Shown: piece after piece, positions 5,709 through 21,160 of the stretch | How positions within the stretch are numbered: the stretch's first letter is position 1 | Layout of the letters: each line of letters begins with the position of its first letter | DNA from: a virus | Reading direction: 5' to 3' (one strand) | Length of the DNA stretch: 21,818 nucleotides | Virus record (IMG/VR): IMGVR_UViG_3300027754_000493 | Coordinates: 1 to 21,818 of that record | Notes under the pieces: generated by a model | The model's database searches: none | What the model was told of the DNA's origin: nothing | What the model saw: the letters and a program-made list of their open reading frames with translations, nothing else | Translations under genes and position numbers: made by a program

Positions 5709-5805
5709 ATGGCTAATACGCTCGCAACCCCCTCGTGGACGACCAAGGAAGTCGCCCGAGGCTTCATCAACAAGCTGGTGTTCCTCGCGAACGTCAACCG
5801 CACCT
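5709..5805 (+). CDS. Major coat protein, exon 1 (residues 1-32 and first base of codon 33)
   Basis: ATG at 5709 after the scaffold stop, with AGGA about ten bases upstream. It encodes MANTLATPSWTTKEVARGF through FLANVNRT, the N-terminus expected of P22-type coat proteins. The frame then hits TAA at 5805-5807, which spans the exon-intron junction (T of the exon, AA of the intron). Joining base 5805 to 6532 gives TAT (Tyr) and continues into exon 2 with no change of frame: 97 + 1139 = 1236 nt, i.e. 411 residues plus stop. Short-ORF filters would discard this exon. Confidence 0.85.
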
Positions 5806-6531
5806 AAACTTCATGGGCGCGTAATATGCTGTGAACTCGGTGGAACCCTAACGAACGTAACGTTCCATGGCAATACCGAGCCAAGACTTGATGATGAAAA
5901 CATGCACCAAATGCGGCGTCGAGAAGGGACTCTCAGAGTTCCCAATCCGTCGCGTGAATAACGGCAAACCGTGCGATCCATTTGCCAACCCAGAATGCAA
6001 GGGTTGTGCATGTGCGCGTGCAACGGCTTGGCGCAAGGCGAATCTTACCCGAGCGGTCATGGACCGATACAATGAAGCGGGTAAACAGAAACGCCAACGT
6101 GTCAGGGATGCGGTGTTCGGTGCGTATGGCGGCTATCGCTGTGCGTGCTGTGGTGAGACTGAGCGGAAATTTTTGACGCTCGATCATGTGTCGAACGACG
6201 GGGCTGCAATGAGACGCGAGACTTTTGGGTCACGTTTTGCTGCTGGTCACCGGACATATGCATGGCTGCTGAGGAAGTCCTTTCCTGTGGGGTATCAAGT
6301 GCTTTGCATGAACTGCAATCACGGGAAGCGGATGAACGACGGCGTGTGTCCACATCAAGTAAGGTCTAACGACTATCCCCTTGTGGGAGTAGAGCCAAGC
6401 GGCTCCAAGCGCAGCACCCCGGTGATTCGTCTTGTCGGGTGAAGATATAGTCTCGTCTGCAATGAAAGTTGCAGTTGTCTGGCTTATGCTAGGCGGGTTG
6501 GTTGTTGCGACACCAATCGAAGAACACAATG
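5806..6531 (+). ncRNA. Group I intron (IA2, td-like) in the major coat gene
   Basis: A 726-nt self-splicing intron read from structure. P1: exon 5799-5805 with guide 5815-5821 (U5805-G5815 wobble, one A-C mismatch). P3: GCUGUG 5828-5833 with CGCAGC 6410-6415. P4: CUCGGU 5836-5841 with ACCGAG 5875-5880, enclosing a P5 hairpin. P6a: ACUUGAUG 5886-5893 with CAUCAAGU 6353-6360. P7: GACUAU 6371-6376 with AUAGUC 6447-6452. P7.1: 6377-6379/6385-6387. P7.2: 6392-6396/6401-6405. P8: 6415-6419/6437-6441. P9: 6457-6462/6469-6474. Further 3' hairpins lie at 6479-6492 and 6496-6518. The intron ends in ACAAUG with terminal G6531, as in T4 td. P7.1/P7.2 and the AAGAUAUAGUC core are hallmarks of class IA. 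The shared use of base 6415 by P3 and P8 means one of them is a base pair shorter. Confidence 0.9.
5891..6442 (+). CDS. Intron-encoded HNH homing endonuclease
   Basis: A 183-aa protein from the ATG at 5891; starts at 5867 (inside P4/P5) or 5894 are alternatives. Residues 5-41 hold a zinc motif (C5xxC8, C36xxC39). Residues 84-150 are an HNH nuclease fold: zinc ligands C84xxC87 and C139xxC142, the catalytic LDH at 97-99, and NCNHGKR at 141-147. It would cut intron-less coat genes and drive homing of the intron. The body lies in the P6a loop, and the start codon is the 3' end of the P6a 5' strand. The ORF does not stop in the loop: residues 161 onward are encoded by P7, P7.1, P7.2, P3 and P8, and it stops at 6440-6442 just before the P7 3' strand. 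The late start inside a stem suggests translation is repressed in folded RNA. Confidence 0.88.
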   Translation: MMKTCTKCGVEKGLSEFPIRRVNNGKPCDPFANPECKGCACARATAWRKANLTRAVMDRYNEAGKQKRQRVRDAVFGAYGGYRCACCGETERKFLTLDHVSNDGAAMRRETFGSRFAAGHRTYAWLLRKSFPVGYQVLCMNCNHGKRMNDGVCPHQVRSNDYPLVGVEPSGSKRSTPVIRLVG

Positions 6532-7670
6532 ATTCTCAATACGAAATTGCTGGCGCGAAGGTCGGCAATACCGTGAATGCGCGTCTGCCCCAGCGGTTCA
6601 CGGTGACTGATGGTCAGGCTCTGCAACTCCAGAACCTGTATGACCAGACGGTCCCGATTTCGCTGACCAACCAGAAGAACGTCGCGTTTGGCTACAGCAG
6701 CCAGCAGGCGACGACCGAACTTGACAACATCCGCACCCGTTACGTTGAGCCGGGGTCCGAAGCCCTTGCCAACGCGGCTGAAGTGCTGGCGTTTCAAGCG
6801 GTCTACCGCGACATCTACAGTGCCGTCGGCACCCCCGGCACCACGCCAAGCACGACCCTGACCTACCTTCAGGCGGGCGTCAAGCTGACCGACCTTTCGA
6901 CCCCGCTGAAGGGCCGTGTGGCGGTGCTGGACCCGCTCGCCATGTCCACGCTCGCGAACACCACCAGCAGCCTGTTCAACCCCACGGCCATCATCTCTGA
7001 GAACTACGAAGAGGGGATGTTTGGGCGTCGGCAGCTTGGCGTCGATAAGTGGCTGCAAGACCCGGTGCGTCCGACGCACACGACCGGCACGTTCACCGCT
7101 TCGACTCCGCTGGTCAACGGCGCGAACCAGACCGGTAGCACCATTGCGACGGATGGCTGGGCGTCGGGTGCGTCGTCCCTCAAGAAGGGCGACATCTTCA
7201 CCATTGCGGGCGTGAACTCGGTCAACCCGCTGTCCTACTCGTCGACCGGTCGTCTCCAGCAGTTCGTCGTCACGGCGGATACGTCGGATTCGTCGGGTGC
7301 GATGGCGACCCTGCCGATCAGCCCGTCGATTGTGACCTCGGGTCAACTGCAGACGGTGGATGCCTCGCCTGTCGACAACGCGGTCATCACCGTGCTGGGC
7401 GCAACCTCGGCGTCGTCTGGGACGCTCGCGACCACGACCTCGCCGCAGTCGTTTGTGTATCACCCGGACGCCTTTGCGTTCGTCATGGCCGACCTGATGA
7501 AGCCCGGTGCGGGCGCAGAATCGACCACGGTGCGGAGCAAGGCCCTCGGCTTCTCGATCCGCATGGTCGAGCAGTATCAGATTGGCACGGACCAGAACCC
7601 GAGCCGTCTCGACATTCTCATTGGTGCGGCAACGATTCAGGCGCGCCTTGCAGCGCGGGTGTGGGGTTAA
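6532..7670 (+). CDS. Major coat protein, exon 2 (P22-type coat)
   Basis: Exon 2 supplies residues 33-411 of the spliced major capsid protein. After the joined Tyr codon it reads SQYEIAGAKVGNTVNARLPQ, the conserved continuation of NRTY in P22-type coats. Later motifs are GVKLTDLSTPLKGR, DPLAMSTLANT, ISENYEEGMFG and LGFSIRMVEQYQIG. The spliced length (411) is near the P22 coat (430), which has an HK97 fold with an inserted domain; Ser/Thr-rich residues about 180-320 probably hold that insertion. An ATG at 6432 in the same frame would give a 412-aa protein, but its first 33 codons are intron P8-P9 sequence, so that start is rejected. Only four bases separate the stop from the next gene. Confidence 0.88.
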
Positions 7671-18310: not shown

Positions 18311-21160
18311 ATGGCAGGCACACTTACTCCCACTCCCTACCAGACCGTATTGGACGCCGATGGCGTGTCCGTGTCTGGCGCACTGATTTACACCTATACC
18401 GGCGGGACGACGACGCTGGCCTCGACGTACACGACCTCGGCGCTGACTGTCGCCAACGCGAACCCTATTGTGGCCGACTCAGCGGGGCGATACGTCGCCT
18501 ACCTACCAGCCGGGTCGAACATGAAGTTCGTGTTCAAGACCGCAGCGGGGGCGACCATTCGCGAGCAGGACAACATCCTGTCGGTGCCCGGTGCGGCAGT
18601 CAACCTCGACATCGAGGGCACGGTTGGCGTGGCCGTGACGGCAGGACAGGTCTGTTATCTGTCGTCGGGGCTAGAGTCGCCGGCCCTGACGGCGGGGATG
18701 TGGTATCTGGCTGATGCGGACTTCGCGGTCAGCAGCACGACCTGTCAGGCCATTGGTGTGGCGGTGAGTGCGATCCCGATCAACACGGCGGGGACCATTC
18801 GTCTGGCAGGCGTAGTGACTACAGCCTCGGCGGTGGTGACGGGCAGCACCTACTACGTGTCGGCGACGGCGGGGGCGTTGACGACCTCTGTGCTGGCCTT
18901 GAACCGCACGGTAGGTATTGCCAACACGACCTCCACACTGCTGCTGGCCGCGACCACGGCAGTGGTGGCGACGATTCCAAACCCGATTGTGCAAGACTTG
19001 CTGTTTGTCGATGCGACCTATGACATCGGCAAATCGGGCGCAAGCCGACCGCGTGACCTGTTCCTGAGCCGCAATGAAACGGTGGGCGGCACGTTGGGTG
19101 TGACTGGTGCGGCCACGCTGTCGTCCACAGTCGCAACGGGTGCGCTTACTGTCACGGGCAACGAAACCGTGTCTGGCACGTTGGGTGTGACTGGTGCGGC
19201 CACGCTGTCGTCTACGGTGGCCACAGGTGCGCTGACTGTCACCGGCAATGAAACGGTGTCTGGCACGCTAGGAGTCACGGGCGCAACAACGTTGTCGTCC
19301 ACAGTCGCAACTGGGGCATTGACGGTCACGGGCAATGAAACCGTGTCTGGCACACTGGGCGTGACTGGCGCAACGACGCTGTCCTCAACAGTCGCAACGG
19401 GTGCGCTAACGGTCACGGGCAATGAGACGGTGTCTGGCACACTGGGTGTCACGGGCGCAACGACGCTGTCGTCAACGCTGGGCGTGACCGGCGTGACCAC
19501 GGTAGCGGCGGGCAGTGCGGCAGCTCCCGCCGTGGTGTCTGTGACCGGCACGTCTGACACCGGGGTGTTCTTCCCGGCGGCGGATACGGTTGCGTATAGC
19601 ACTGCCGGTACCGAGCGTTTGCGGATTAGCTCCGCTGGCAACGTCGGCATTGGGACGTCAAGTGCAACAAACGTGCTTGAGGTAAAGGCCGACACCTCAC
19701 GTTTTTACTGTGCGACGAACCCTACCACGAGTCTCACAGCGAAACAAATCAGCATCGGAGAAAGCAGCAACAATGCTGCGTATCGCCTTCAGTTGGGCTA
19801 TTTCACCGACGGCTCGTATAAAGGGTCGATACAATCTCTGGAAAATTCTGTCGGCTCATATTTAGCAATTAATGCGGCTGGCGGCAACGTCGGCGTTGGG
19901 ACGGCGAGTCCGACGTATCAATTACAGGTAAGTGGAACAGGTCAAACGACCGCTGCATTGACAGACGCTGGTAATAAAGGCGGATCGTTGTATCTCAATG
20001 ATGCCGGTATCAATGTTTCTGGTGCGGGTGGCGCTATTTTGTTCGGCTCGAGAGCGGAGCCGGTTACACCGTTTGCTGCGATGAAAGGGTTGTTGAATAA
20101 CGGCGCCGGGCAAACGGCAGGTGATCTTGCAATCAGCACACGCAATGCCACTGGGGATGTGGCGCTGACTGAACGAATGCGGATTACCTACGCTGGCAAC
20201 GTCGGCATTGGGACGTCGAGTCCAGTGGCAAAGTTAGATGTTGCGGGATCCGCCGGAGCGGTTGCGGCAAATATCAATTGCGTCAACGGGCCAGCGCTTC
20301 CGACGATTATCAACGTCAACGGAAACTCTGCGTTGGCCATTTCTGCCAATCGGTCTGGCGGTCAAAGCGAACTCAACCTCATTAATACCAACTACGGAGC
20401 GGCTGGCGCTGGAGGTATTTGGTTTGAACAAGCGACAGGAGCGGCTGCTGTTGCTACGCGAATGGTTATTGATAAGAGCGGTAACGTTGGCATTGGGCTA
20501 ACAGGACCAGTCTATCAACTGCAAGTCAACACCGACTCGGCTGGTAAGCCCGGTGTCGGTGGCGTGTGGACGGTGGTGTCCGACGAACGCATCAAGACCG
20601 ACATCGTCCCAGCCGACCTCGACCGCTGCTACGAGATTGTCAAGTCTGTGCCGCTCAAGCATTTTGGCTTTGCGCCCGGTGTGTATACCGACGAGCAGAT
20701 TCAGGACAAGCATTCGCTTGGCTGGATTGCCCAAGACGTGCAGCAGGTGTTCGCGAAGGCCGTCTCGGTCAAGCCGTTTACGCTGCACACGGATATCCCT
20801 GACGGCACCGAAGACTACGAAGAACAAGACTTCACGCTAGACCATGTGGAGACAACGACGACCAGTATTCAGATTATTGACGGCAAGCCGGTGCAGGTCT
20901 CTAAGACAGAGACAGCAGAAAACAAAGTGCTGCTCTTCGACACTGTAGATGTGCTGGACGAATCAGGTGCGGTGGTCATGGACGGCGACATGCCGTTGAC
21001 CTACCAAATGCCGCGTATGGTGACAAAGACGAGACCAAAAGTACGTCATGAAACCATCGATGACTGCCTTGACCTGAACGGCGGACAGATGATTGCCGCG
21101 CTGTATGGGTGTGTGCAAGCGTTGATGGCGAAGGTTGAGGCGCTAGAAGCCCGTGGATGA
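18311..21160 (+). CDS. Tail fibre with C-terminal S74 intramolecular chaperone
   Basis: A 949-aa receptor-binding fibre. Residues 1-90 (TLTPTPYQTVLDADGVSVSG, then AGRYVAYLPAGSNMKFVFK and REQDNIL) are a virion-anchoring N-terminal type common to podovirus fibres and spikes. Residues 95-225 are beta-rich. Residues 255-399 are 29-residue repeats. Residues about 430-740 contain four GNVGIG or GNVGVG modules, each followed by a short strand (LEVKA, LQVSG, LDVAG, LQVN), typical of beta-prism or beta-helix fibres. From residue 755 the S74 chaperone begins with SDERIKTDI: Ser757 and Lys762 match the Ser-Lys pair that cleaves the chaperone off after trimerisation. It ends in a coiled coil (ALYGCVQALMAKVEALEARG). 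The stretch 19700-20500 looks lower in GC, suggesting exchange of the receptor-binding part. Confidence 0.85.
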   Translation: MAGTLTPTPYQTVLDADGVSVSGALIYTYTGGTTTLASTYTTSALTVANANPIVADSAGRYVAYLPAGSNMKFVFKTAAGATIREQDNILSVPGAAVNLDIEGTVGVAVTAGQVCYLSSGLESPALTAGMWYLADADFAVSSTTCQAIGVAVSAIPINTAGTIRLAGVVTTASAVVTGSTYYVSATAGALTTSVLALNRTVGIANTTSTLLLAATTAVVATIPNPIVQDLLFVDATYDIGKSGASRPRDLFLSRNETVGGTLGVTGAATLSSTVATGALTVTGNETVSGTLGVTGAATLSSTVATGALTVTGNETVSGTLGVTGATTLSSTVATGALTVTGNETVSGTLGVTGATTLSSTVATGALTVTGNETVSGTLGVTGATTLSSTLGVTGVTTVAAGSAAAPAVVSVTGTSDTGVFFPAADTVAYSTAGTERLRISSAGNVGIGTSSATNVLEVKADTSRFYCATNPTTSLTAKQISIGESSNNAAYRLQLGYFTDGSYKGSIQSLENSVGSYLAINAAGGNVGVGTASPTYQLQVSGTGQTTAALTDAGNKGGSLYLNDAGINVSGAGGAILFGSRAEPVTPFAAMKGLLNNGAGQTAGDLAISTRNATGDVALTERMRITYAGNVGIGTSSPVAKLDVAGSAGAVAANINCVNGPALPTIINVNGNSALAISANRSGGQSELNLINTNYGAAGAGGIWFEQATGAAAVATRMVIDKSGNVGIGLTGPVYQLQVNTDSAGKPGVGGVWTVVSDERIKTDIVPADLDRCYEIVKSVPLKHFGFAPGVYTDEQIQDKHSLGWIAQDVQQVFAKAVSVKPFTLHTDIPDGTEDYEEQDFTLDHVETTTTSIQIIDGKPVQVSKTETAENKVLLFDTVDVLDESGAVVMDGDMPLTYQMPRMVTKTRPKVRHETIDDCLDLNGGQMIAALYGCVQALMAKVEALEARG
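19073..19507 (+). repeat. 87-nt repeat array in the fibre gene (four full units plus a truncated one)
   Basis: Units begin at 19073, 19160, 19247, 19334 and 19421. Each encodes NETV(S/G)GTLGVTGA(A/T)TLSSTVATGALTVTG (29 residues). The fifth breaks into an 11-residue partial copy, STLGVTGVTTV. Codon choice differs widely at third positions between units while the protein hardly varies. The array would form a repetitive beta shaft in the trimeric fibre. Confidence 0.9.

Follow-up and report, generated by a model that had tools for sequence, protein, structure and literature searches.

An HNH endonuclease reading frame that runs through the catalytic core of its own group I intron in a phage coat gene

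A group I intron in the P22-type coat gene of a phage carries an HNH endonuclease ORF whose body lies in the P6a loop and whose frame continues through the catalytic core of the same intron. We consider it highly probable that the C-terminal tail encoded there is mainly ribozyme RNA that is incidentally translated (“core creep”), with stop codons supplied by the core, because the RNA of this region is conserved whichever frame, or none, is translated. Taken alone, this intron adds a further case to a known type of overlap. More is to be learned from its family, a single endonuclease-intron lineage that has switched repeatedly between two frames in which the core is translated and a third that the core closes with a UAA of its own. 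Core creep was put forward on the basis of few examples, and the family offers a natural set on which to test it; a simple rule also suggests itself, namely that stop codons in the conserved core limit the reach of the ribosome.

The DNA analyzed, referred to here as the window, is a 21,818-base IMG/VR virus record with portal, scaffold and P22-type coat genes, and the related loci compared with it are designated by L-numbers (L001, L252 etc.). Elsewhere in the window, a large ORF at 18311-21160 contains many near-identical repeats of approximately TLSSTVATGALTVTGNETVSGTLGVTGA and perhaps encodes a tail fibre.

The interrupted coat gene and its intron

The interrupted gene and the reading frame within its intron comprise the following features:

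5709-5805, + strand: exon 1 of the P22-type major capsid (coat) gene, contiguous with exon 2 in relatives that lack the intron, and ending in the P1 pairing
5806-6528, + strand: group I intron of 723 nt, from comparison with the empty site
6529-7670, + strand: exon 2 of the coat gene (P22_CoatProtein; Pfam PF11651, E 1.9e-30; phrog_283, E 4.4e-63)
5867-6442, + strand: HNH homing-endonuclease ORF, 191 aa from ATG 5867, with ATG 5891 or 5894 as alternative starts
6368-6439, + strand: C-terminal extension NDYPLVGVEPSGSKRSTPVIRLVG, read through P7 5', P7.1, P7.2, P3 3' and P8
6440-6442, + strand: stop TGA, from the core sequence GGG-UGA-AGAUAUAGUC, overlapping the P8 3' strand

The gap between the two exons measures 726 in the window and 3, by the same measure, in relatives that span the site, which gives an insertion of 723 nt. 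All relatives among L016-L094 that span the site lack the insertion, and the exon 2 protein of empty-site relatives is up to 98% identical to that of the window. In L001-L004, whose coat genes are diverged, introns occupy the same position. The 5' splice site follows T5805, with a U.G pair at the splice site in P1. A length-preserving boundary makes A6528 the last intron base; exon 2 then begins with AUGA, which can pair with a UCAU adjoining the guide sequence. A terminal G is the norm for group I introns. The nearest usable G that keeps the frame is G6531, and its use would remove an Asp codon from exon 2. The intron of L001 presents the same non-G problem, those of L002 and L003 end in G, and a search for intronless relatives of L001 that might fix the 3' splice site found none. 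Compared with the intronless L017, the coat gene differs at positions -2, +1, +4, +7 and +10 and nowhere else from -97 to +111, all five differences being synonymous third positions, and this cluster is likely the co-conversion footprint of a recent homing event.

The ORF product matches the phrog_2255 HNH endonuclease profile (E 4.5e-17) and has homologues in L001-L004; the protein gave no match in Pfam. Invariant among the HNH proteins are C13, C16, C44, C47, C92, C95, C147 and C150, together with the DH at 106-107. The profile match, the paired Cys motifs, the presence or absence of the intron and the converted flanks qualify the ORF, at the level of sequence, as a putative homing endonuclease gene. 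The original prediction began the ORF at 5886, which proves to be the first base of P6a and not a codon; the frame starts at one of the three ATGs listed above. With ATG 5867 as the start, P4 3' and P6 5' also lie within the ORF, which then touches P5 3'. By eye, no clear Shine-Dalgarno sequence was seen for the ORF starts.

The core elements of the intron are as follows:

5799-5805, + strand: P1 exon strand CGCACCU, pairing with the internal guide sequence at 5815-5821 with one A.C mismatch and U.G at the splice site
5815-5821, + strand: P1 internal guide sequence GGGCGCG, pairing with 5799-5805
5827-5833, + strand: P3 5' strand TGCTGTG, pairing with 6410-6416; covaries and appears in the unconstrained fold
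5886-5893, + strand: P6a 5' strand ACTTGATG, containing the alternative start ATG 5891
6353-6360, + strand: P6a 3' strand CATCAAGT, encoding the conserved ..CPHQ.. with which the HNH domain ends
6371-6376, + strand: P7 5' strand GACTAT, pairing with the P7 3' strand at 6447-6452
6376-6388, + strand: P7.1 hairpin, from the predicted fold
6392-6405, + strand: P7.2 hairpin GAGCC AAGC GGCTC (strands 6392-6396 and 6401-6405), with covariation
6410-6416, + strand: P3 3' strand CGCAGCA, with pairing and covariation in the tail-coding group
6415-6441, + strand: P8, CACCC 6415-6419 with GGGTG 6437-6441, read by eye and absent from the unconstrained fold
6447-6452, + strand: P7 3' strand ATAGTC, pairing with 6371-6376
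6457-6474, + strand: P9 hairpin, from the predicted fold

The group I core set of P3, P4, P6, P7 and P8 is thus accompanied by P7.1 and P7.2, and given these two modeled helices the intron is of predicted IA type. The Rfam group I model (RF00028) scores 28.1 bits (E 5.9e-05), below its gathering score of 50, so that Rfam at the gathering threshold returns no match for the intron. An unconstrained fold of the intron minus the ORF body recovers P3, P4, P5, P6a, P7.2 and P9. Equivalents of P1 with other bases can be read by eye in L001-L004, and P7 of L003 is GACCAT/ATGGTC, a two-sided change relative to the window. This anatomy confirms the original placement of the ORF body in the P6a loop with its frame passing through its own core, namely the P6a 3' strand, P7 5', P7.1, P7.2, P3 3' and P8. 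The stop, predicted to fall a few bases short of the P7 3' strand, lies 4 nt before it, and the predicted tail of about 23 codons likewise holds: 24 codons from AAC 6368 to GGG 6439, or 23 counted from GAC 6371 at the start of P7. P6a pairs an in-frame ATG, the alternative start, with the CPHQ codons of its own protein, and folding could therefore mask that start.

Reading frames and stops among related introns

A search with a profile of the HNH proteins yielded 80 loci; with earlier loci included, 58 distinct HNH domains had a recognizable downstream core, and frames were assigned relative to the conserved AACGAC of that core. The frame of the window is used by 18 of the 58 ORFs (tail ND[Y/H]...) and the other coding frame by 12 (tail often TTIP...). 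In the remaining 28 the core's own UAA (“UAACGAC”) is in frame, and 27 of them end at it, the other ending earlier. The positions of the stops range from before P7 through P7 5' (L004), P7.1-P8, J8/7 (the window, L003, L101 and others) and P7 3' to P9 or beyond (L001, L002, L098, L100, L106, L112, L136 and L007), with the ORFs of L001, L098 and L100 extending past P9. Adding the J8/7, P7 3' and P9 classes, 22 distinct introns are read about as far as the window or further. On a maximum-likelihood tree of the HNH domain, from which the tail was left out, at least 9 changes of frame and at least 21 changes of stop class are required. A further intron, L252, was found by its core motif; its HNH domain resembles the UAA-stopped type, yet it uses the window's frame and stops at a UAG in P7. 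It lies in another P22-type coat gene (match at 6513-6535, minus strand), apparently at a nearby but different insertion site. One related locus, L096, came from a scan of genome contigs. There are several hundred additional relatives (523 reported). Named phages matched the DNA of the window in the 3' core region only, with nothing near its upstream genes.

Comparison of ORF length and tail conservation in homologous introns had been proposed as a check on the original prediction, with tail-less homologues counting against it. Such relatives exist: L004, L252 and the 27 ORFs stopping at UAA. The length of the extension thus varies between related ORFs, as core creep leads one to expect. The commonest form in the family ends at the UAA in J6/7, at the edge of P7, and this is what one would also see if the window's longer frame were the product of a frame-shifting sequencing error near 6350, a concern raised with the original prediction. 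We give this explanation virtually no credence, since L001, L002, L003, L098, L100-L102, L104 and others, independently sequenced and diverged, share the frame, L001-L003 and others share the tail as well, and the P6a, P7 and P3 pairings of the window are intact.

Under core creep, the most probable course is as follows. A mobile group I intron of predicted IA type in a phage coat gene carries a putative HNH homing endonuclease in its P6a loop, with the endonuclease domain finishing at a conserved “CPHQ” that already lies within the P6a 3' strand. Small indels in the few nucleotides between CPHQ and P7 would shift the ribosome into another frame on entry to the core; we infer this route from the frame switches among the sequences. 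The conserved core then provides the stop: the UAA of “UAACGAC” in one frame, and in the others the UGA of “GGGUGAAGAUAUAG”, the UAG that closes “AUAUAG” or, now and then, a UAG within P7, P7.1 or P7.2. The frame used in the phage of the window misses the UAA and continues for some 23 codons to the UGA. A ribosome on the ORF would have to unfold P6a to P8, and endonuclease synthesis and splicing would consequently compete in time.

RNA and protein constraint on the tail

The original prediction held that the overlapping sequence must satisfy both RNA folding and the C-terminal codons. The RNA half of this claim stands. Within the group that translates the core in the window's frame, 100% of cells in P3 are paired with double changes in 4 of 7 pairs, and in P7.2 96% are paired with double changes in 4 of 5 pairs; these values were reached by none of 500 shuffles, which ignore relatedness. 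P7.1 was left out of the covariation analysis on account of misplaced columns, the P6a columns are misplaced for at least L001 and L002, and P7 is too invariant among the relatives for a covariation test. The frame groups agree in how variable each column of the core is (Spearman 0.88, 0.58 and 0.61). In the group of the window, entropy averages 0.726, 0.569 and 0.765 at the three codon positions, without a clear excess at the third. Read in the frame of the window, the core stays open up to J8/7 in 19 of the 28 UAA-group introns versus 15 of the 18 in which it is translated; since untranslated cores are open nearly as often, the open tail alone is not beyond chance.

The protein half of the claim fares less well: as a preserved tail, the 23 codons are contradicted by homologues that use another frame, stop earlier, stop in P7 or run past P9. 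In a rival reading, the tail serves the endonuclease, contacting DNA for instance, and the sequence is under true dual selection on RNA and protein; some observations are consistent with this. Over about 18 codons of related sequences, own-frame pN/pS of the tail in the window's frame group is 0.39 (0.30-0.51), below both readings of the same columns used as controls (0.71, 0.51-1.06, in the UAA-stopped group; 0.85, 0.52-1.40, in the other coding frame), and the window-frame tail is retained in several diverged relatives. The low ratio is a weak hint of some amino-acid constraint on the tail; in the second coding group, pN/pS is not clearly below its controls. A functional tail nevertheless seems to us quite improbable, given relatives that use another frame or end earlier across those frame and stop switches, the ends of L004 and L252 inside P7, and tail residues in P7.2 that vary widely (E/G/Q/R, P/A/S/T, G/A/E/D/V) in step with the helix. 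We also regard as unlikely a more restricted form in which an accidental tail has begun to serve the protein in the window-frame lineages, placing the core there under real dual coding (overprinting).

Translation, splicing and known systems

Incidental translation of the core may still have consequences for splicing. The original prediction that translating ribosomes would melt the ribozyme has a precedent in the td/I-TevI system of T4, where a translating ribosome disturbs splicing and occupancy of the core lowers it (PMC2988022, PMC3073962). By analogy, translation and splicing likely compete in the intron of the window as well; that the intron is spliced and its ORF translated in this phage is itself presumed. 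To call the two processes mutually exclusive on one RNA, as originally proposed, goes too far. The intron contains the ORF in its entirety, and translation could thus follow excision; passage of a ribosome, moreover, would be transient. In the short ORFs of the family, P6a is already covered and the stop falls at the border of P7, terminating the ribosome there, and the tail therefore adds little interference. Competition would be shared by the family at large and would not be peculiar to the window's tail.

The overlap could instead be an adaptive switch, selected to make splicing and endonuclease synthesis mutually exclusive. The lowering of td splicing by ribosome entry in T4 (PMC2988022, PMC3073962) is compatible with such a role, and starts in or beside the predicted P5 and P6a helices (ATG 5867 adjoins P5 3' and ATG 5891 sits in P6a 5') could restrain translation while the intron is folded. 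We find selection for a switch very unlikely, as tail length is not conserved, the commonest form stops at the edge of P7, and an excised intron that keeps the whole ORF could be translated later, leaving exclusivity unforced.

A full-text literature search pairing the phrases “ORF overlaps” and “catalytic core” returned no match. Overlap of intron ORFs with core elements is documented all the same, and the original premise that td-like ORFs are usually confined to one peripheral loop is not borne out: in td, 20 nt of the I-TevI ORF form part of P6a, P6.0 and P7, and Table 1 of PMC3073962 lists other intron ORFs with overlaps of 56 and 81 nt. The td intron resembles that of the window in being a phage group I intron with an ORF in the P6/P6a region whose 3' end contributes to P6a and P7, whereas I-TevI is a GIY-YIG and not an HNH enzyme and its overlap is only 20 nt. 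Its ribosome binding site is sequestered by a mapped hairpin, while the starts in the window merely lie in or beside predicted P5/P6a helices. In the nrdF intron of Bacillus thuringiensis, a P6a ORF likewise overlaps P6a/P7/P7.1, by 56 nt (PMC3073962), but it encodes a GIY-YIG endonuclease and its overlap is shorter than that of the window. The precedent for an ORF running through the core is the LSU rDNA intron of Synechococcus lividus, with 81 nt of overlap across P6/P7/P3/P8/P9.0/P9 (PMC3073962); that ORF, however, is of the LAGLIDADG type, is inserted in P8 and resides in an rRNA host gene. Edgell, Chalamcharla and Belfort (2011) proposed core creep as a growth of intron ORFs into the core that follows invasion and leaves them with variable and dispensable ends (PMC3073962). 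In that account a stop is lost by point mutation, whereas in the family of the window the changes are apparently for the most part frame shifts, and the stops come from conserved motifs of the core.
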